Assembly (NCBI GenBank): GCA_031256615.1
Contig: JAIRQG010000055.1
Span: forward strand, 1 to 7,862
Reading direction: 5' to 3'
Source of the DNA: Candidatus Methanoplasma sp.
GTDB taxonomy: Archaea > Thermoplasmatota > Thermoplasmata > Methanomassiliicoccales > Methanomethylophilaceae
Length of the DNA stretch: 7,862 nucleotides
Under the pieces are notes generated by a model. That model did not search any database and had not been told where the DNA came from. It saw nothing but the letters and a program-made list of their open reading frames with translations. Of this stretch, positions 189 to 7,568 are shown piece after piece. How positions within the stretch are numbered: position 1 is the stretch's first letter; each line of letters opens with the position of its first letter. Made by a program: the position numbers and the translations under genes.

Positions 189-998
189 ATGCACCCCTCC
201 GATCTTTGGAAAAGGCCGGAAGGCAGACCATTGATAATGGGGATACTGAACCTGACCCCCGATTCATTCTCGGACGGAGGCGCATACCTTTCAACAAATA
301 ATGCCTTGAAGCATGCTTATCATCTTTTGGAGAGCGGCGCGGATGTCATAGACATAGGAGGAGAATCCTCAAGGCCAGGTTCCGAACCGGTATCTGAGGA
401 GGAAGAGATCGAAAGGATCATCTGCGTGATAAAAGAACTCGCGCCGACGATCGGCATCCCCATATCGGTAGATACAGCGAAGCCCCGCGTTGCCGAATTA
501 TCTCTCAAAGCGGGAGCGTCGATCATCAACGACATCGGCGGATTACGGAATGACGATATGACGGATGTTGCGATATCTCACGATGTTCCGGCGGTGATCG
601 TGCATATGCACGGAACCCCAAAGACCTTCGGGACTGACATGATGGAAGGCGATGCCCTGGCCGAGATCAAAAGGTTCCTCAACGAAAGGGCGGAGCACGC
701 CGTAGGCAGAGGACTGGATGAAAAGAACATCATCCTTGATCCCGGAATAGGTTTCGGGAAGAACCCTGAGCAGGACATGATGATCATACAAAACAGCGGA
801 TGGTTCGGCGGCGGATACCCTGTGCTCATCGGCCCGTCCAGAAAGAGGTTCCTTTCGAAGCATTATCCCCGCATGGAAAGAGACGAGGCCACTGCCGCAG
901 CATCGGGAACAGCTGCGGAGAATGGCGCGGCGATCCTCAGAGTGCATAACGTCTCCGCAGTCGTGCAGTTCCTTGAACGGCGTCGTTCCGGCTTATAA
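189..998 (+). CDS. folP: Dihydropteroate synthase
   Basis: This enzyme joins 6-hydroxymethyl-7,8-dihydropterin diphosphate to p-aminobenzoate to make 7,8-dihydropteroate in folate synthesis, in the cytoplasm. At 269 residues it has the usual length of a single-domain TIM-barrel enzyme. The family motifs are all present: NLTPDSFSDGG (21-31), DIGGESSRPG (55-64), SVDT (93-96), NDIGG (114-118), MHGTP (140-144), DPGIGFGK (184-191), GPSRKRF (215-221) and RVH (251-253). The usual ligand residues map to N21, R62, D95, N114, D184, K219, R251 and H253, so the enzyme should be active. It starts 2 bases after the upstream stop, which suggests translational coupling. No other folate gene is visible nearby. 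Its last bases overlap the convergent DUF2116 gene by 6. Many methanogens use methanopterin and lack this enzyme, so its presence is a clue to lineage or transfer. Confidence 0.96.
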   Translation: MHPSDLWKRPEGRPLIMGILNLTPDSFSDGGAYLSTNNALKHAYHLLESGADVIDIGGESSRPGSEPVSEEEEIERIICVIKELAPTIGIPISVDTAKPRVAELSLKAGASIINDIGGLRNDDMTDVAISHDVPAVIVHMHGTPKTFGTDMMEGDALAEIKRFLNERAEHAVGRGLDEKNIILDPGIGFGKNPEQDMMIIQNSGWFGGGYPVLIGPSRKRFLSKHYPRMERDEATAAASGTAAENGAAILRVHNVSAVVQFLERRRSGL

Positions 999-1190
999 GA
1001 AGGCGCCTATTGTCAGTATGACCAATACGCTTACGGCTGTCACTACAACAAAAAGGATATTGTTGCTCTTTTCCTTTTTGATCTTAGCCTGATCCTTCCA
1101 ATAACAATCCTCTGAGCAGTAGGCCTGCTCGAATGGCACGGGGTCTCCGCAGAACTTACAGTGGTCATGTTCAGGCAGTCTTACGGACAT
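993..1190 (-). CDS. DUF2116-type zinc-ribbon protein with C-terminal membrane helix
   Basis: The protein has 65 residues. The N-terminal part has four cysteines, C11, C14, C25 and C29 (HCKFC, YCSEDC), spaced to hold one zinc. A lysine-rich linker (about 33-42) follows, then one hydrophobic helix (about 44-64) that runs to the C-terminus. This is the layout of the archaeal DUF2116 zinc-ribbon family, whose function is unknown. The polarity suggests a tail-anchored protein with the zinc ribbon in the cytoplasm. There is no Shine-Dalgarno sequence before the ATG, but a TATA-like TTTAAAT on this strand lies about 26 bases upstream, so the mRNA is probably leaderless. It is divergent from the SPFH operon and shares the intergenic region with it. 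Its stop is shared with the folP stop in a TTATAA palindrome. Confidence 0.85.
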   Translation of the reverse strand: MSVRLPEHDHCKFCGDPVPFEQAYCSEDCYWKDQAKIKKEKSNNILFVVVTAVSVLVILTIGAFL

Positions 1191-1321: not shown

Positions 1322-2233
1322 ATGGTATTGAGTGTTTTTAAGTCCGGCGATGAACTGTTCAATCAGGGCATAGACCTGGTAAAAAGGAAGGAATATGCCA
1401 AAGCAAGAAGGAATTTTGAAAAGACCATTGAGAAAGGCGGCAGGGAAGCGGCACTTGCAAGAGCCTATGTGGACATAATAGATGCGTGCCTTGACAGGGA
1501 TAATCCTGGCAAGTACAACAAACTCGCGTCAACCCTTGATCAAATGAAGGAGGATTTTGAGTTTGGACTGACCGAGATAAATCCTCCCAGAGTCGCATTG
1601 GAGTGCAGGCTGCTGGCCGAACGAATGGAGGCCGGAAGGATGCCTGGGGGCACCCCTGCGCAGGCGGAAGCAAAGGGTAACAGGTTCCTTGACGTTGCCA
1701 GAAAATATCAGGCGATGATAGGGAATGAGACGATAAAGATCAGCGAGATCGTAGGAATACCTGTGAACACCGGCATCAAAGAGGCCCTGTACGCACAGAC
1801 CGTTGGATACGAGAACCTTGCTTTGGGAGCGGTTGCAGCGGACCCGAAGAGGGCCGCTGAGCTGCTGCAGAACGCGTATGCCTGCCGCAAACAGGCCGGA
1901 GAGGATGCTCAGTATATCCTGAACACCATCAATGCATATTCTAAGTCAGTGAAATGCTGGATCTGCGGAAGGCCTTCAACCGGCGAGGGCGTGCATTTCC
2001 TTGCGATGCCCAGCGATATATCGCCGTTTATGAAGAAATCCGATGACGATATACTGAAATCCACTCCTGCCGATTATAACTCGGTATATGTATGCAGACC
2101 TTGCTACTCCGCTATATCTAGAAGATCGGATGATATTGCAAGGCAATACCACGAAAGAGCGATGCAGGAGATGAGGGCCATGGAGGCGAGACTACAGGCC
2201 CAGATCAGCAGCATGGCCATGATGAGACGGTGA
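1322..2233 (+). CDS. Helical-repeat (TPR-like) protein with C-terminal CxxC/CxxC zinc site, first gene of the SPFH operon
   Basis: I do not recognise a named family for this 303-residue protein. Residues about 5-60 look like a TPR-type helical hairpin (ELFNQGIDLVKRKEYAKARR, then NFEKTI). The middle, to about 207, is also mostly helical, with a second TPR-like stretch around 156-193. A compact metal site follows, CWIC (212-215) paired with CRPC (258-261). The last 35 residues are a charged, methionine-rich helix that may be a coiled coil. There is no signal peptide or membrane helix, so it should be cytoplasmic. The stop lies 5 bases before the next gene's TTG. Position and shared zinc sites suggest an adaptor for the downstream SPFH complex, but this is inference. 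The ATG at 1322 is supported by the TATA box about 30 bases upstream. Confidence 0.85.
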   Translation: MVLSVFKSGDELFNQGIDLVKRKEYAKARRNFEKTIEKGGREAALARAYVDIIDACLDRDNPGKYNKLASTLDQMKEDFEFGLTEINPPRVALECRLLAERMEAGRMPGGTPAQAEAKGNRFLDVARKYQAMIGNETIKISEIVGIPVNTGIKEALYAQTVGYENLALGAVAADPKRAAELLQNAYACRKQAGEDAQYILNTINAYSKSVKCWICGRPSTGEGVHFLAMPSDISPFMKKSDDDILKSTPADYNSVYVCRPCYSAISRRSDDIARQYHERAMQEMRAMEARLQAQISSMAMMRR

Positions 2234-2238
2234 AATGA

Positions 2239-3783
2239 TTGGATGAAATGGTTATGCTCCGGTGCAAATACTGCGGTGCCCCTCTTGAGAAAAAGGCCTT
2301 GGAGTCTGATTCTCCGTACATAACATGCTCCAGCTGCGGTACGTCCCAGCAAAGGGTGGATGCCAGGGCATATCTTGACCAGATGATGGGACAGATACAG
2401 TCATGGATAAGCAGGACCATACCGGGAGGATTCTCCATGTCTCAGAGCGAGAACGTGGACTCCGTTGCAAGATTCAATATATTCAACAACAATGTTAGAC
2501 CAAGGGTCGAGACAGAATATTCAGAATACAGGTTTGCGGCCAATTCTCTTTTGGCAAATCCTCTGATAACGCTCCCTTTCACCACTGATAACAGCGCCGT
2601 GCCCGCCCACACCTCCGCGAAAGCATTCGAGTTCAATGCAAAGGTCAAGAGCATAGAGGCCCTGGCTGTAGACGAAGCTTCCAAGAACATCGTCATATCG
2701 GCGGAGGAGATGGCTTCGGGGTATGCGGTTCTGATCAACAACACGAAACTTCTCCAGGAAGACAAGCCCGGAAGGTACACGCTTATGGCCAACAATTTCA
2801 CGGAAGCCTCGGCGGCGTTCGGGAAGATCAAAGGATACGGACCTGCCGCAGACCGCTTCCGGGCTTTGGCCGGGGTCTGTACGGGGTGCGAGAAACTCCT
2901 GAACGGGGACGGCGCCGGAAGCCTCTCATACTTCGAGGCGGGGGCCGCACAGCTAAGCAAGGTCAAGACCGCCATCAGCACAGATCTGACGCTGGGCATC
3001 ATGTATCAGGCGGTGGACATGGAGATAACGCAGACAAAGATCCTTTCGGACATTGCCGGATTCGTCCTCAAAGGGGTTGCCGCAAATCCCCTGGAGATAC
3101 TCAACACCATCAAAAAGATAATAAGCTTCAATTACCCGAAAACGGGGAGGTGGGGATACCTGCTCGGGAACAAGGACAGATTCAGCGAGATCTTCGCCAA
3201 TCTTTCGAAAGTGCTCAGCGCAAAATCCGGAGGCACGCTCGCCATCGTACCCGGTGCGGGAGAATATCTGATACCGTTTTGGGATATCGATCTCAAATAC
3301 AGCTTCCAAACGGGTGCGGCATGGGCGAAAAAGAGCGTTGAGGTCAAAGAGGATCTTCTCATACCGGCAGACTTCGTCATCGACGCGCAGTGCCTGAACG
3401 ATCCGAGGGGCGGGATCACGGACATATTCTCCATAAGGCCGGAAAAAAGCATACTCTCAGGGATAAAAGGAACCGAGACGAGCATAAGCGACGGAGAGGG
3501 CATCGGACGACTTTCCGATTCCGCCGCACAGAACTCTCCGGGGTCGAGAAAGATCGTGGTCCCTCTGAGCACAGAAAAAGAAGCAAAAAAGCTGATGAGC
3601 GAGTATCTTGCGGTATGCACCAGCCAGGACTCGAAACTCAAGCTGAGCAATCCTAATGTAAAATCGCTCATCTTTATACCATGCAATGTCAGCGGCGGCC
3701 GTGTCGAGGTCCCGAACGGATTCGGCAAGCTTGTGCCCCAGCGCATGAGAAGGATGGAGCTTTCTCAGATGATAATAATATAA
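2239..3783 (+). CDS. Large zinc-ribbon protein of unknown function, SPFH operon
   Basis: The protein has 514 residues from a TTG start at 2239, chosen because GGTGA (2229-2233) lies 5 bases upstream; an in-frame ATG at 2248 would shorten it by 3 residues and is a fair alternative. An N-terminal zinc ribbon (CKYC at 9-12 and CSSC at 30-33) is followed by a short helix and a long region with no family I can name. Around 350-380 the segment YLIPFWDIDLKY, followed by a FQTGAAW stretch, resembles the 'PFW' beta domain of zinc-ribbon proteins encoded beside SPFH genes, such as B. subtilis YdjG; this comparison is from memory and weak. The C-terminus (MIII) is hydrophobic but too short to span a membrane. 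The tight spacing to the neighbours argues for a shared complex. Confidence 0.85.
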   Translation: MDEMVMLRCKYCGAPLEKKALESDSPYITCSSCGTSQQRVDARAYLDQMMGQIQSWISRTIPGGFSMSQSENVDSVARFNIFNNNVRPRVETEYSEYRFAANSLLANPLITLPFTTDNSAVPAHTSAKAFEFNAKVKSIEALAVDEASKNIVISAEEMASGYAVLINNTKLLQEDKPGRYTLMANNFTEASAAFGKIKGYGPAADRFRALAGVCTGCEKLLNGDGAGSLSYFEAGAAQLSKVKTAISTDLTLGIMYQAVDMEITQTKILSDIAGFVLKGVAANPLEILNTIKKIISFNYPKTGRWGYLLGNKDRFSEIFANLSKVLSAKSGGTLAIVPGAGEYLIPFWDIDLKYSFQTGAAWAKKSVEVKEDLLIPADFVIDAQCLNDPRGGITDIFSIRPEKSILSGIKGTETSISDGEGIGRLSDSAAQNSPGSRKIVVPLSTEKEAKKLMSEYLAVCTSQDSKLKLSNPNVKSLIFIPCNVSGGRVEVPNGFGKLVPQRMRRMELSQMIII

Positions 3784-3789
3784 ATGAAC

Positions 3790-3797
3790 GGAAGTGA
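3790..3797 (+). promoter_or_regulatory. Ribosome binding site that favours the internal ATG at 3802
   Basis: GGAAGTGA ends 4 bases before the ATG at 3802, and GTGA can pair with the archaeal 16S end. The first ATG (3784) abuts the upstream stop as TAAATG and could also be used by coupled re-initiation. Confidence 0.45.
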
Positions 3798-3801
3798 AAA
3801 A

Positions 3802-4164
3802 ATGAATAACAAAACTTTGTCTGCGATTTCGCTGGGATCGGCGATCATCGCACTGGGAATCGGACTGATAGTCTATGTCATCACTGACGAGTTGGCGATG
3901 ATATTGTGGACTGTCTTGCTGATATTCGGTATAGCGCTGCTCGCCATGTCATTCTTATACTCAGGCAAGAGCGGGAAGTTCGGCCCTTCTGAATTCGTTT
4001 ACAGAATGGTGCTGGGCATACTTCTTGCCGTCATCGGCGTGATAGGCATACTATACACTTACACAGATGTCAGCATCTGGATACTCGCGGCGATATTCCT
4101 CATAGCCCTAGCGCTGGTGGGGATCTTGGTTGCGCTTATGAACGGAAAAAAGGAGGGGCAGTAA
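3802..4164 (+). CDS. Small four-helix membrane protein, SPFH operon
   Basis: From the ATG at 3802 the protein has 120 residues; an in-frame ATG at 3784 adds six (MNGSEK). I prefer 3802 because a binding site sits just before it and the first helix follows closely. Four hydrophobic segments are clear: about 8-28, 31-53, 66-88 and 91-113. A basic loop (SGKSGKFGPSE) lies between helices 2 and 3 and the tail is NGKKEGQ. By the positive-inside rule both ends and that loop face the cytoplasm, making two helical hairpins. There is no catalytic motif. It is the only membrane protein in the operon, so it is the natural candidate to tether the soluble SPFH and zinc-ribbon proteins. No family name is recognised. 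Confidence 0.85.
   Translation: MNNKTLSAISLGSAIIALGIGLIVYVITDELAMILWTVLLIFGIALLAMSFLYSGKSGKFGPSEFVYRMVLGILLAVIGVIGILYTYTDVSIWILAAIFLIALALVGILVALMNGKKEGQ
4151..4158 (+). promoter_or_regulatory. Strong Shine-Dalgarno sequence for the coiled-coil gene
   Basis: AGGAGGGG lies inside the 3' end of the membrane-protein gene, with 8 bases between AGGAGG and the ATG at 4165. It supports that start and independent ribosome entry at this junction. Confidence 0.7.
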
Positions 4165-4695
4165 ATGCCGATCGATGAAACAATAGAGAGTCAAATGAAA
4201 AAGAACCAATCCCTCATAGAGAGGATCGGTCTCTACATCCCCATCTACAGAGGGTACAAGAACAAGAACCTCCGCAGGGATGAGGATCGGGCCGTAAGGA
4301 CCGAGGTTGCCAGGGTCCTCGAGAGAGCGAAACTCGACCTGGTCACCGTGCAGAGAGCAACCGTGAACGATCTTGATCTGATGAGGGACGCAGAAAGAAT
4401 AAGAAGCAAAGCGGACCGCTATTACATAGATGTGAAGAAAGCAGTCAACGGATACAGTGCATTCCACTCATCGGTCAAGATCCTGGAATCGGAGCTTGAC
4501 ATGCTGATCGAATGGGACGCGAACCTGATAGAGGATGCGGTCGCCCTTAAGAACGAGACCGCAGAGCTTGTCAGAATGATCGACGCCGGAGATACGGGAC
4601 TGAAGACCCCATTGAGAGACCTCGAGATAACCATCGATAAACTCATAGAGGACTACAATGAAAGGGAAACGATCATGAGAGGATTCAAAGAGTAA
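4165..4695 (+). CDS. All-helical coiled-coil protein encoded beside SPFH, function unknown
   Basis: The 176-residue protein is highly charged, appears almost wholly helical, and has no membrane segment or cysteine pairs. Two recognisable blocks stand out: GYKNKNLRRDEDRAVR (30-45), and GYSAF (96-100) leading into a helix through about 128 with acidic and aliphatic spacing. From memory, bacterial proteins with a GYk-x-rRe-x-D-x-x-R block followed by a GY-x-x-F block also occur beside SPFH-domain genes; I give no family number. The length and helical make-up invite comparison with PspA/ESCRT-III proteins, but I see no direct sequence match. It starts immediately after the upstream stop (TAAATG) behind a strong binding site. 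Likely role: soluble structural partner of the SPFH protein (inference). Confidence 0.85.
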   Translation: MPIDETIESQMKKNQSLIERIGLYIPIYRGYKNKNLRRDEDRAVRTEVARVLERAKLDLVTVQRATVNDLDLMRDAERIRSKADRYYIDVKKAVNGYSAFHSSVKILESELDMLIEWDANLIEDAVALKNETAELVRMIDAGDTGLKTPLRDLEITIDKLIEDYNERETIMRGFKE

Positions 4696-4701
4696 GGTGA
4701 T
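4696..4701 (+). promoter_or_regulatory. GGTGAT ribosome binding site for the SPFH gene
   Basis: GGTGAT is complementary to the conserved archaeal 16S 3' end (ATCACC). It sits between the upstream TAA and the ATG at 4706 with 4 bases of spacing, fixing that start. Confidence 0.75.
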
Positions 4702-4705
4702 CTAA

Positions 4706-5812
4706 ATGGCAGAAAAAACAAACGTAGTGTTCTGGGCGAACCAGGGGCAGGATGACATAATATACAGGTCGGCACAGGACGACCTCAGGACGATCACTTC
4801 GGTCACCGTGCCGGAGCATGCTGTAGCGCTCTTCATCAGGGACGGGCAGCTGATGGGCGTGCTGGAGCCGGGGAGGCATGTCATAACCTCGGCGAACATC
4901 CCCTGGCTCACGAAACTGTACAACCTTGCGCTGGGTTTCAAGGAGACGCCGTTCAAAGTTTGGATCGTGTTCGTCTCCCTGAAGATGTTCAACGGCAAGT
5001 GGGGCATCAGAAGCATGATAAAAGCGGCCAAGGAGTACGAAGTGCCGATAGTCCTCATGGCGAACGGAGACTTCCAGTTCAGGATCAACGACACAGCGGT
5101 GTTCTACACCCAGGTGCTCGGCGGGCTTAACGCATACTCGACCGGCGACGTGAACTCTTTCATGAAGAGCTTCATCAATGAGCAGATCATCCAGCAGATG
5201 AACACCCAGTATTACATGGACATCATGGAGAATCTCGAGAAGGCGTCCACCAACACCAAGATACTCATCGAGCAGTACTTCGCCCAGAGAGGCATTGAAC
5301 TGCTTTCGCTGAAGATCAATGAGGTTCTTACGACCGACGAGGACCGCCAGAAGGTGTTCAACTACCTGCAGTTCAGCAGCAAGAACGGAGAAGCCTTCAG
5401 AAGATACGAGGTTATGGAGAGCATGGCCAACGCCATCGGCGAATCCACAGGAGGAGCGGCGATGGGCGCAGGAATGCTTCTGTTCCCGCAGATGTACCAG
5501 CAGCTGCAGCAGCAGCCGGTTCAGGGTGTGCAGCAGCAACAGCAGCAACAGCAGCCAATGAAGGTCATGTGCCCAACATGCGGCGGACTGAACGAGTACC
5601 CGTACAAATACTGCAACAGCTGCGGACAGCCCTCGCCTATGGCGGCGGCCCATGGACAGCCTGTGCAGGCGCAGCAGGCGCCTCCGGCAGGGAACACCGG
5701 AGTATCTGCGGGCGGCAAGAAGTTCAAGAACTGCCCTTACTGCGGCGAGGATATCAGCAGCCTTCCGAAGACACCCAAATTCTGTCCTTACTGCTCAGAG
5801 CAGATAAACTGA
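4706..5812 (+). CDS. SPFH-domain protein with poly-Q linker and two C-terminal zinc ribbons
   Basis: The protein has 368 residues. Residues about 1-215 match the stomatin/prohibitin-like SPFH group often annotated as 'virion core protein' or COG4260, which includes B. subtilis YdjI: TVPEHAVALFIRDGQL, LEPGRHVI, the strand-rich core and LLSLKINEVLTT. A short helical and Gly/Ala-rich part (about 216-258) follows, then a Gln-rich linker with eight consecutive Gln (276-283). Two zinc ribbons close the protein: CPTC/CNSC (289-292, 303-306) and CPYC/CPYC (343-346, 360-363), joined by an Ala/Gln/Pro linker. There is no N-terminal membrane helix, unlike classical stomatins, so membrane contact is probably through partners. 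SPFH proteins form large ring or scaffold assemblies at membranes. It is the last gene of the operon and ends at a hairpin terminator. The family call is firm; the cellular role is inferred. Confidence 0.92.
   Translation: MAEKTNVVFWANQGQDDIIYRSAQDDLRTITSVTVPEHAVALFIRDGQLMGVLEPGRHVITSANIPWLTKLYNLALGFKETPFKVWIVFVSLKMFNGKWGIRSMIKAAKEYEVPIVLMANGDFQFRINDTAVFYTQVLGGLNAYSTGDVNSFMKSFINEQIIQQMNTQYYMDIMENLEKASTNTKILIEQYFAQRGIELLSLKINEVLTTDEDRQKVFNYLQFSSKNGEAFRRYEVMESMANAIGESTGGAAMGAGMLLFPQMYQQLQQQPVQGVQQQQQQQQPMKVMCPTCGGLNEYPYKYCNSCGQPSPMAAAHGQPVQAQQAPPAGNTGVSAGGKKFKNCPYCGEDISSLPKTPKFCPYCSEQIN
5501..5554 (+). repeat. CAG/CAA repeat coding for a poly-Q linker
   Basis: The stretch from the QQLQQQ motif to an uninterrupted run of eight Gln codons at 5531-5554 (CAG CAG CAA CAG CAG CAA CAG CAG) lies between the SPFH domain and the first zinc ribbon. 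The codon mix is periodic (CAGCAGCAA), so replication slippage could change linker length without breaking the frame. Confidence 0.8.
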
Positions 5813-5858
5813 TCCGGCCAACGCCGGGTCTTCTTTTTCATTTTTCCGTCTTTATTTT
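5811..5858 (+). terminator. Hairpin plus T-rich terminator of the SPFH operon
   Basis: GATCCGGC (5811-5818) pairs with GCCGGGTC (5823-5830), an 8-bp stem with one G-T pair and a CAAC loop. T-rich runs follow from 5831 (TTCTTTTT, CATTTTT, CTTTATTTT). The stem begins inside the TGA stop codon. Confidence 0.8.
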
Positions 5859-5869
5859 CGATGTTCCTC

Positions 5870-6550
5870 TTATGTATCTGTGGTCACATCATCCCAGTCA
5901 TCTTCACAATAGTTGATCAGCCAATTCAGCGCACGGTGCCTCTCCATCACGATGCCCCATTCATTCTTGTGCTCCATCGGATTGCTGATCCTGTTCTCCA
6001 CACACGCCCAGTCATACCTGTAGATAAGGTCTGCCTGGTCCAATATAGCTTCTTTATCACGCAGGACCGCATTTGAAAGGAATTCCCTATAGCTCTTGTA
6101 ACCATTCATCAGACCGACAGCTTTAGTTACGTCGCATACCTCGGCAGGCACCGCCAGAGCCTCTTTTGTGCTCAGAAAGCCCAGCGCCCAGAGCATAACG
6201 GTGAACGGCTCGTACTGCCATGAGTATTTGATGCATTCTGACATGTCTGGATCTTTGTTCTCCAGGAATGCTCTTTCATCTGGGGTAAAGAAATCTTGCG
6301 CATCAAAAAGCCTGATCAGTCTTTCTATCCATTTTCTGTGCTTTTTCCGTTTTTCGCCCGAACAAAGCCCTTCGGCATACAGAGATATCAGCATCAGGCC
6401 GACCGTCCGGCGGGCGACCTCTTCCTTCGTGCGCAGGACCGTCTCATCCATGCTTTCGATCCGGGGGAGCCCGTCCATTGTCTTTATTCCAAGCGCTTTC
6501 AGAATCGCGATGCTTTTCTGTTTTCTCTGTTCCGAATCATCGTCGCACAT
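5870..6550 (-). CDS. DUF4272 domain protein
   Basis: From the ATG at 6550 the product has 226 residues; an upstream in-frame ATG at 6586 would add 12 hydrophobic residues (MFMLWTPFHLFI) that the family does not need. The DUF4272 signature runs the whole length: LPRIE (28-32), LRTKEEVARR (39-48), WQYEPFTVMLWALG (111-124), ILDQADLIYRYDWA (169-182), GIVMERHRALNWL (199-211) and the closing WDDVTTDT (219-226). The function of the family is unknown; it is a soluble, helical, mostly bacterial family, sometimes found near toxin-immunity loci. Here it stands alone, tail to tail with the SPFH operon, and may have been acquired from bacteria. No residue can be named catalytic. The gene looks intact. Confidence 0.9.
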   Translation of the reverse strand: MCDDDSEQRKQKSIAILKALGIKTMDGLPRIESMDETVLRTKEEVARRTVGLMLISLYAEGLCSGEKRKKHRKWIERLIRLFDAQDFFTPDERAFLENKDPDMSECIKYSWQYEPFTVMLWALGFLSTKEALAVPAEVCDVTKAVGLMNGYKSYREFLSNAVLRDKEAILDQADLIYRYDWACVENRISNPMEHKNEWGIVMERHRALNWLINYCEDDWDDVTTDT

Positions 6551-6573
6551 AATGAATAGATGGAATGGCGTCC

Positions 6574-6590
6574 ATAACATAAACATATTT
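6574..6590 (-). promoter_or_regulatory. Possible TATA-like region for the DUF4272 gene
   Basis: The minus strand reads AAATATGTTTATGTTAT here, about 25-38 bases before the ATG at 6550. It is AT-rich and correctly placed for a leaderless start at 6550, but not a clean TATA box. There is no Shine-Dalgarno sequence before either candidate ATG. Confidence 0.3.
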
Positions 6591-7043: not shown

Positions 7044-7568
7044 ATGAAAGAGCTGAAGGATTATGTCACGGCGATACCCGACTTCCCTAAGAAAGGGATA
7101 ATGTTCAGGGACATCACCACCATTATCGAGGACCCTAACGGTTTCAAGTTGGCCGTGGACAGTCTGATAGCTTTGCTTAAAGGCGTGGATTTTGACCTGG
7201 TGCTCGGTTCGGAATCAAGAGGATTCGTATTCGGCGCTCCAGTGGCGTATGCGATGGATAAGGGCTTGGTGCTTGTAAGGAAGAAAGGAAAGCTTCCGAG
7301 AAAGACCATCTCCGAAAGCTACGAACTGGAATACGGAGAGGCTACCCTGGAGATCCACACCGACAGCATCAAAAAGGGGCAGAGGGTAGTGATCATCGAT
7401 GACCTTATTGCGACAGGCGGAACGACAAGCGCGGTCATAAAACTGGTAGAGAAGCTTGGCGGAGAGGTCGTCAAGATATGTTTCGTACTGGAGCTTGCCG
7501 GCCTTAAAGGAAGAGATGCGCTGAAAGGATACGATGTGGAATCTCTGATCATTTACGAAGGGAACTGA
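7044..7568 (+). CDS. apt: Adenine phosphoribosyltransferase
   Basis: The enzyme converts adenine and PRPP to AMP and diphosphate, a cytoplasmic purine-salvage step. Its 174 residues are the normal family length. The start (DYVTAIPDFPKKGIMFRDIT) is the typical Apt N-terminus that forms the adenine-binding hood. ESRGFVFG (57-64) is the conserved loop near the active site, RKKGKLP (80-85 region) the flexible lid, and VVIIDDLIATGGTT (115-128) the PRPP-binding motif with its two Asp (D119, D120). All key parts are intact. It is monocistronic: its own TATA box and an upstream terminator precede it, and an AT-rich promoter region follows. A hypoxanthine-specific relative is possible in archaea, but the N-terminus fits Apt well. 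Confidence 0.95.
   Translation: MKELKDYVTAIPDFPKKGIMFRDITTIIEDPNGFKLAVDSLIALLKGVDFDLVLGSESRGFVFGAPVAYAMDKGLVLVRKKGKLPRKTISESYELEYGEATLEIHTDSIKKGQRVVIIDDLIATGGTTSAVIKLVEKLGGEVVKICFVLELAGLKGRDALKGYDVESLIIYEGN

Follow-up and report, generated by a model that had tools for sequence, protein, structure and literature searches.

A conserved five-gene cluster with an SPFH protein in Candidatus Methanoplasma and its two-gene core in other archaea

Results

Five tightly packed genes

The DNA studied here is a stretch of 7,862 nucleotides (the window) from a Candidatus Methanoplasma genome that is 81% complete and belongs to the family Methanomethylophilaceae, order Methanomassiliicoccales, in the Thermoplasmata lineage of the phylum Thermoplasmatota. 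It contains five genes, designated g1 to g5, the last of which encodes an SPFH protein. The features of the region are listed below (aa, amino acids; TM, transmembrane; TPR, tetratricopeptide repeat).

1286-1293, + strand: TATA-like box (CTATATAA), likely operon promoter, the surrounding motif aligned in relatives
1322-2233, + strand: g1, 303 aa; N-terminal TPR-like region and C-terminal four-cysteine zinc site (C212-C215, C258-C261); partner of g2
2239-3783, + strand: g2, 514 aa, TTG start; zinc ribbon (C9, C12, C30, C33), TPR-like solenoid at about 75-330, C-terminal beta domain with a PFW motif
3784-4164 (alternative start 3802), + strand: g3, 126 aa from 3784; four-TM protein, proposed membrane anchor
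4165-4695, + strand: g4, 176 aa; helical bundle of a short N-terminal helix plus four helices
4706-5812, + strand: g5, 368 aa; SPFH protein (Band_7_1) with a Q-rich linker and, at the C-terminus, two zinc ribbons; no TM segment found
5811-5830, + strand: stem-loop of 8 pairs with a T-rich tail, possible terminator

Five same-strand genes separated by 0-10 bases had been proposed in an earlier reading of this DNA (the original prediction), and all five open reading frames (ORFs) were found on the + strand with gaps of 5, 0, 0 and 10 bases, the second becoming 18 bases with the 3802 start of g3. The eight CxxC motifs that had been assigned to three of the five proteins were also recovered: two such motifs occur in g1, three in g2 and four in g5, and eight of them lie in zinc-type pairs. 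The proposal of one promoter and one strong terminator held in part. The TATA-like box lies 36 bases upstream of the first ATG, and a AAAGRAACATYTAT-like stretch was present at the same place in L051, L052 and L053 and, less well, in L055, that is, in four of the seven relatives aligned; it was not clear in L054, L060 and L063. The stem-loop, however, is only suggestive as a terminator because such sites have a high background in the region (7 terminator-like sites versus 3.7 +/- 1.8 in shuffles).

Loci for comparison were picked by their g4 matches, and 24 of them (L047-L070) were fetched from the 50 genomes of the family that have g4. Co-occurrence in related genomes had been put forward as one of the points on which the original prediction could fail; all five genes were kept in the same order and on the same strand in 23 of the 24 family loci, L050 being without g3. 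Comparison with four relatives of the same genus gave ratios of non-synonymous to synonymous substitution (dN/dS) of 0.03-0.33 for all five genes, which indicates purifying selection, these ratios being rough because dS (0.6-3.2) is partly saturated. The five genes are a real, tightly packed and conserved cluster, and they are likely to be co-transcribed as one operon. No match to Rfam was found at the gathering threshold. The defence library PADLOC gave three matches (E 0.0015-0.0051), and the phage library PHROGs matched only in the zinc-ribbon part of g5.

The SPFH protein and its helical and four-TM neighbours

Among the five proteins only g5 passed curated Pfam cut-offs. It matched Band_7_1 (PF13421) with E=1.6e-23 and 83.9 bits against a cut-off of 24, and Band_7 (PF01145) with E 3.3e-6 and 27.7 bits against 23.6, so that its description as an SPFH protein with zinc ribbons, which lie at the C-terminus, was borne out. 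Compared by sequence with solved structures, the SPFH profile returned zinc-ribbon matches only. In one relative (L070:9430-9750) an extra ORF of 106 aa resembling part of the SPFH protein directly follows the operon.

The protein g4 was modelled with AlphaFold2 (AF2) as a helical bundle, with a predicted local distance difference test (pLDDT) value of 87.8 for the best of five models. Its residues 25-170 resemble the NCBIfam family NF047596 (LIMLP_15305 family; E=2.4e-7), at 30.8 bits, far under the cut-off of 210. The profile of this family was over its cut-off in none of 21 genomes, with a match below the cut-off in Bacteroides ihuae; the name LIMLP_15305 reportedly occurs also in a Leptospira paper. 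Where close relatives of g4 carry an organism name, it is Candidatus Methanoplasma or Methanomassiliicoccaceae. The prediction of a coiled-coil protein other than PspA was supported: neither PF04012 (PspA) nor PF03357 (ESCRT-III) was matched by g4 of the window, nor did they occur among 25 of the 28 families listed for 39 g4 members. PspA structures were also absent among the matches listed for the g4 model, which excludes nothing. By sequence, no solved structure was found for the single g4 protein, and the g4 profile had no convincing match. An amphipathic reading of the N-terminal helix was not used, its hydrophobic moment not being exceptional.

The protein g3 has hydrophobic segments at 15-33, 43-61, 72-90 and 100-118 in a simple scan that found none in g1, g2, g4 and g5. 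Its gene stands upstream of g4 in 23 of the 24 family loci and in L102, a locus from another family of the phylum; weaker matches were found in L108, L112 (E 6.5e-4) and L123.

The zinc and TPR-like proteins g1 and g2

The first two genes had been said to match no nameable family, and neither g1 nor g2 was above the cut-off of any Pfam or NCBIfam family, g2 giving weak zinc-ribbon matches only. The four cysteines of the g1 zinc site are invariant in 21 rows. A TPR_2 match at E <= 0.05 was found in 15 of the 21 g1 members; g1 of the window reached 15.6 bits against a cut-off of 27. Compared as a whole with consensus TPR chains, g1 gave a best E=8.2e-7, the aligned part being residues 8-42, and no single stretch passed alone. 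The AF2 model of g2 (pLDDT 82.8) combines the zinc ribbon with a TPR-like helical solenoid and a beta domain. The zinc ribbon is invariant among the aligned members, and the third CxxC (CTGC at residue 214) is not conserved. No solved structure was found by sequence for the single g2 protein, nor a convincing match for its profile. A single additional TPR-like zinc protein had been expected in the cluster; the TPR-like motif of g1 agrees with this, but g2, too, is modelled with a TPR-like solenoid, so that the number has to be corrected.

A widespread g4-SPFH core

The order was surveyed in 120 genomes, 75 of which (by row count) are of the window's family. With g2 matches counted at E 1e-10 or better, g1 and g2 were present in the identical 54 of the 120 genomes, all within this family, to which strong g2 matches in the order are thus confined; 17 further weak g2 matches outside it (E 1e-3 to 1e-5) cover the zinc ribbon only. 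A single-sequence search found g4 in 50 of the 75 family genomes.

Of 194 genomes of the phylum, 67 matched the g4 profile. Among named genomes, a scan with g4 yielded 199 candidate stretches, and the 80 best were retained as loci; these include Candidatus Methanoperedens (L122), an ANME-2 (anaerobic methanotrophic) archaeon (L126), Methanomicrobium mobile (L145), Methanocorpusculum species and Methanocalculaceae. All but one of the best 80 are labelled archaeal, L158 being labelled bacterium. Adjacency was examined in 140 loci (L031-L070 and L097-L196), which after removal of 6 duplicates left 134. An SPFH gene directly follows g4 in 126 of these, the two genes overlapping or lying no more than 30 bases apart in 120 of the 126. 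Three of the other eight end too early and five are without direct g4-SPFH adjacency; L108 has one gene between the two. In 11 of the 134 loci (L110, L111, L158, L163, L164, L171, L184, L185, L186, L192 and L194) g4 itself carries at its N-terminus a zinc-ribbon pattern resembling that of SPFH, a sign that the two proteins may have contacts in common.

In the other four, L113-L116, a divergent g4 lies beside a protein whose N-terminal domain was not recognised and which has a coiled coil and, in L113, L115 and L116, a C-terminal zinc ribbon. This protein is perhaps an unrecognised SPFH relative, and it is not claimed as SPFH. Walker-A ORFs close by in L113-L115 proved to belong to ABC transporters.

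Strong g2 matches were found in 19 of the 194 phylum genomes, outside the family only in G157, G211 and G250; in G157 and G211 g1 and g2 adjoin, and no SPFH gene was found in the fetched stretch. The full g1-g5 operon is present in L102. The idea of five genes as one conserved unit thus holds for the cluster itself, but the widespread core is g4 with SPFH rather than all five genes. Beside this g4-g5 core, g1 and g2 constitute a second, separable pair.

Two operon types

In sister families of the same order, 37 genomes have g4, and 16 of their loci were fetched. The gene order g4-SPFH-znA-znB-znC was found in 14 of the 16; of the exceptions, L041 is cut by a contig end and L042 has g4-SPFH only. 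znA and znB have a zinc ribbon and motifs such as YFPIW and PFW, and C-terminal TM segments were predicted on both (two examples of each scanned); none was predicted in the two znC proteins scanned. This type resembles the window's cluster in having five genes, the same g4 and g5 families and zinc-ribbon partners. It differs in its TM-bearing znA and znB, in the absence of g1, g2 and a four-TM gene from the cluster and in the separate clade of its SPFH protein. The zinc-finger partner set of the original prediction is therefore present in the window's family, but it has to be amended for the sister families, which use other zinc-ribbon partners. In the wider locus set znA-znB-znC precede g4-g5 in 14 loci, and reduced forms occur too.

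At E 1e-10 or better znA was found in 40 of the 45 order genomes outside the window's family and in none of the 75 within, and in none of the 120 genomes did the marker genes of the two types occur together. In a tree of 51 SPFH rows a 100/99 branch separates the window's family, L102 and L108 (the latter on a long branch) from all others, namely the sister families, other members of the phylum, the methanogens and three variant loci (L209-L211). The lack of a shared genome and the deep SPFH split argue for a distinct type and not a local gene swap. As judged from sequence, the window's type is a separate operon lineage, which either spread or was retained in few lineages.

A relation of full-length g2 to znA, znB or znC was rejected: in profile comparison only the zinc ribbon aligned (probability 77-92%). 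The trimmed C-terminal domain of g2 gave E 0.0026 with znC and a score of 26.3, the best of 60 column shuffles reaching 23.8, and the hhalign probability was 11%, or 2.7% with fewer sequences. That g2 might be a znC-like protein with an inserted solenoid is kept as a hint and not claimed.

Comparison with PspA and ESCRT systems

No PspA match (PF04012) was found for any of the five proteins, and a TPM-domain family was not among their Pfam matches at E <= 1. PF04012 was over its cut-off in two of the 120 order genomes (G010 and G014) and reached E <= 0.001 in four; the control matched in 9 of 14 genomes. In the window's genome, 81% complete as it is, no match was found. The PspA genes of G010 and G014 lie outside the operon, on a different contig or 275 kb from g4.

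In the parts of PMC8581546 that concern it, Bacillus subtilis YdjI has a zinc-finger motif and is predicted to be without TM segment; its membrane localization needs YdjG and YdjH, and PspA foci require YdjI. The operon is given in the corresponding part of a Psp-partner survey (PMC11237479) as PspA, a band-7/zinc-ribbon protein, a membrane protein that bears a zinc ribbon, and a protein with a TPM domain. As far as these excerpts describe the system, the archaeal cluster resembles it in that the SPFH protein, here g5, lacks a TM segment and has its zinc motif at the C-terminus, and in that it is encoded together with a helical partner and with one or more membrane and zinc-ribbon proteins. 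However, PspA and the TPM-domain YdjH are missing from the archaeal operon, the helical partner g4 is of another family, g1 and g2 look TPR-like and bear no predicted TM segment, and a four-TM g3 stands instead of YdjG/H. The pspA-ydjGHI-like logic that had been proposed is consequently retained as a style of parts and of working only.

Methanogen loci with Meth_adaptin and the endosomal sorting complex required for transport (ESCRT), in the portion of PMC10936438 that treats them, likewise place an archaeal SPFH protein that has a coiled coil and a zinc ribbon in the setting of membrane remodelling, whereas the ten window proteins scanned gave no match to Vps4, ESCRT-III or adaptin-like families. 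A Snf7 search was negative in all 120 order genomes, which says little because the control matched in only 1 of 14 genomes. In loci L031-L070, no AAA-like Walker-A pattern was found at 5 kb or less from g4.

Neighbouring genes

Directly after the operon lies a convergent DUF4272 gene (5870-6586, - strand; PF14094, E 4.8e-62). Divergent from the operon, a 65-aa DUF2116 treble clef protein with a hydrophobic C-terminal stretch is encoded at 993-1190 (- strand; E 4.1e-12). Further downstream is a phosphoribosyltransferase gene (7044-7568, + strand), of the adenine type as read, and a matching gene lies about 5 kb or less downstream of the operon in all six relatives displayed (L047, L052, L055, L062, L064 and L070).

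Discussion

The cluster may encode an SPFH scaffold that works without PspA at the inner face of the archaeal membrane, a reading drawn from sequence comparison for which we consider the case evenly balanced. By analogy, its role would probably be in sensing or containing membrane damage. SPFH proteins generally oligomerise at membranes, and in the arrangement that we infer for assembly, anchoring, docking and surveillance or containment, g5 would do the same. Since no TM segment of its own was found in g5 with the scan used, the four-TM protein g3 would hold it at the membrane. The predicted TM segments of znA and znB in the sister-family type count in favour of this reading, as does the dependence of YdjI on YdjG/YdjH in the part of PMC8581546 cited above. 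The conservation of all five genes in 23 of the 24 family loci, the identical distribution of g1 and g2, the g4-g5 adjacency, the SPFH-like zinc ribbon on some g4 proteins and the rarity of PspA in the order also favour it. The helical bundle g4, whose gene nearly always adjoins that of SPFH, would be the direct partner of g5 and would fill the position of PspA in B. subtilis. Docking contacts would be provided by the zinc ribbons of g1, g2 and g5, while client proteins or damaged membrane would be recruited or sensed by the TPR-like solenoids of g1 and g2. A wider version, which we regard as rather unlikely, is that archaea have PspA-independent SPFH membrane-protection machines with g4 as a PspA-like effector and two mutually exclusive outfits: a type A with TM-anchored zinc-ribbon proteins, and the window's type B with a four-TM anchor and soluble TPR/Bro1-like zinc adaptors, g1-g2.

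Several observations weigh against the scaffold reading. Five of the 54 genomes with g1-g2 gave no g4 match (G001, G062, G068, G090 and G107), and at the following places the pair stands alone, neither SPFH nor g4 being found in the fetched stretch:

L207:6090-8593 (G001): g1-g2 pair
L208:5189-7673 (G068): g1-g2 pair
L221:2954-5510 (another family): g1-g2 pair
L222:5569-8152 (another family): g1-g2 pair

Of the five genomes all but G107 were fetched, and in L212 (G090) the stretch ends inside g2. Twenty-one of the 75 family genomes are without g1 and g2, among them G045, G048, G054 and G056, which are 97-99% complete. Stretches from four of the 21 were inspected (L213 of G115, L214 of G048, L215 of G054 and L224 of G045); L213 has SPFH and a g4 fragment at a contig end. 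L214:4385-7008 encodes an SPFH protein of 447 aa, then a g3-like protein of 119 aa, with a convergent zinc-ribbon protein of 290 aa alongside. Furthermore, a recognisable g4 was not found in three variant loci of the form g1-g2-SPFH followed by a protein with hydrophobic segments and C-terminal helices:

L209:5143-9487 (G062; last protein of four TM segments plus helices): variant cluster
L210:5623-10090: variant cluster
L211:4759-9098: variant cluster

The C-terminal helices of these last proteins were considered as a fused g4 and not accepted (best E 0.0065). Among the structural matches listed for g4, no significant fold relation to PspA or ESCRT-III was seen, and a replacement of PspA by g4 does not follow from the rarity of PspA in the order. 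The controls with PspA include Methanosarcina acetivorans and Haloferax volcanii, and apart from the controls the search covered the window's order only, so that methanogens carrying g4-g5 may possess PspA as well.

The occurrence of the g1-g2 pair alone implies that it may act independently, and this separability speaks against a single five-part complex. The operon could then consist of two modules with nothing but the promoter in common: a scaffold of g4-g5, and an independent zinc/TPR pair with a task of its own. The reverse case also favours this, since the 16 sister-family loci examined all have g4-g5 and lack g1-g2. We nevertheless regard it as unlikely: of the 50 family genomes in which g4 was found, only G084 is without g1 and g2, which leaves 49 that have them, and in the variants L209-L211 an SPFH gene again follows g1-g2. 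A role in membrane protein quality control, in which an SPFH ring would regulate a membrane protease whose gene lies elsewhere and g1 and g2 would adapt substrates to it, appears quite improbable. SPFH proteins such as HflK/C and prohibitins do control proteases, and TPR solenoids, as modelled for g2, often bind peptides; however, no protease was recognised by eye among the ORFs of twelve loci, whose flanks were not scanned against the family library. Very improbable is an ESCRT-like sorting machine with g2 as a Bro1-like adaptor beside SPFH, as in the methanogen ESCRT loci.

The operon may bear on the handling of membrane stress in archaea without PspA, and a description of it was not found in the open-licence literature searched. 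The present analysis provides a defined gene set and puts on record two protein pairs with clear conserved residues. The two-gene core, g4-g5, is common to the Thermoplasmatota and several methanogens and has strain-named hosts in Methanomicrobium mobile and Methanocorpusculum. The gene set also suggests that SPFH-zinc-ribbon scaffolds exist in a form that is not built around PspA.

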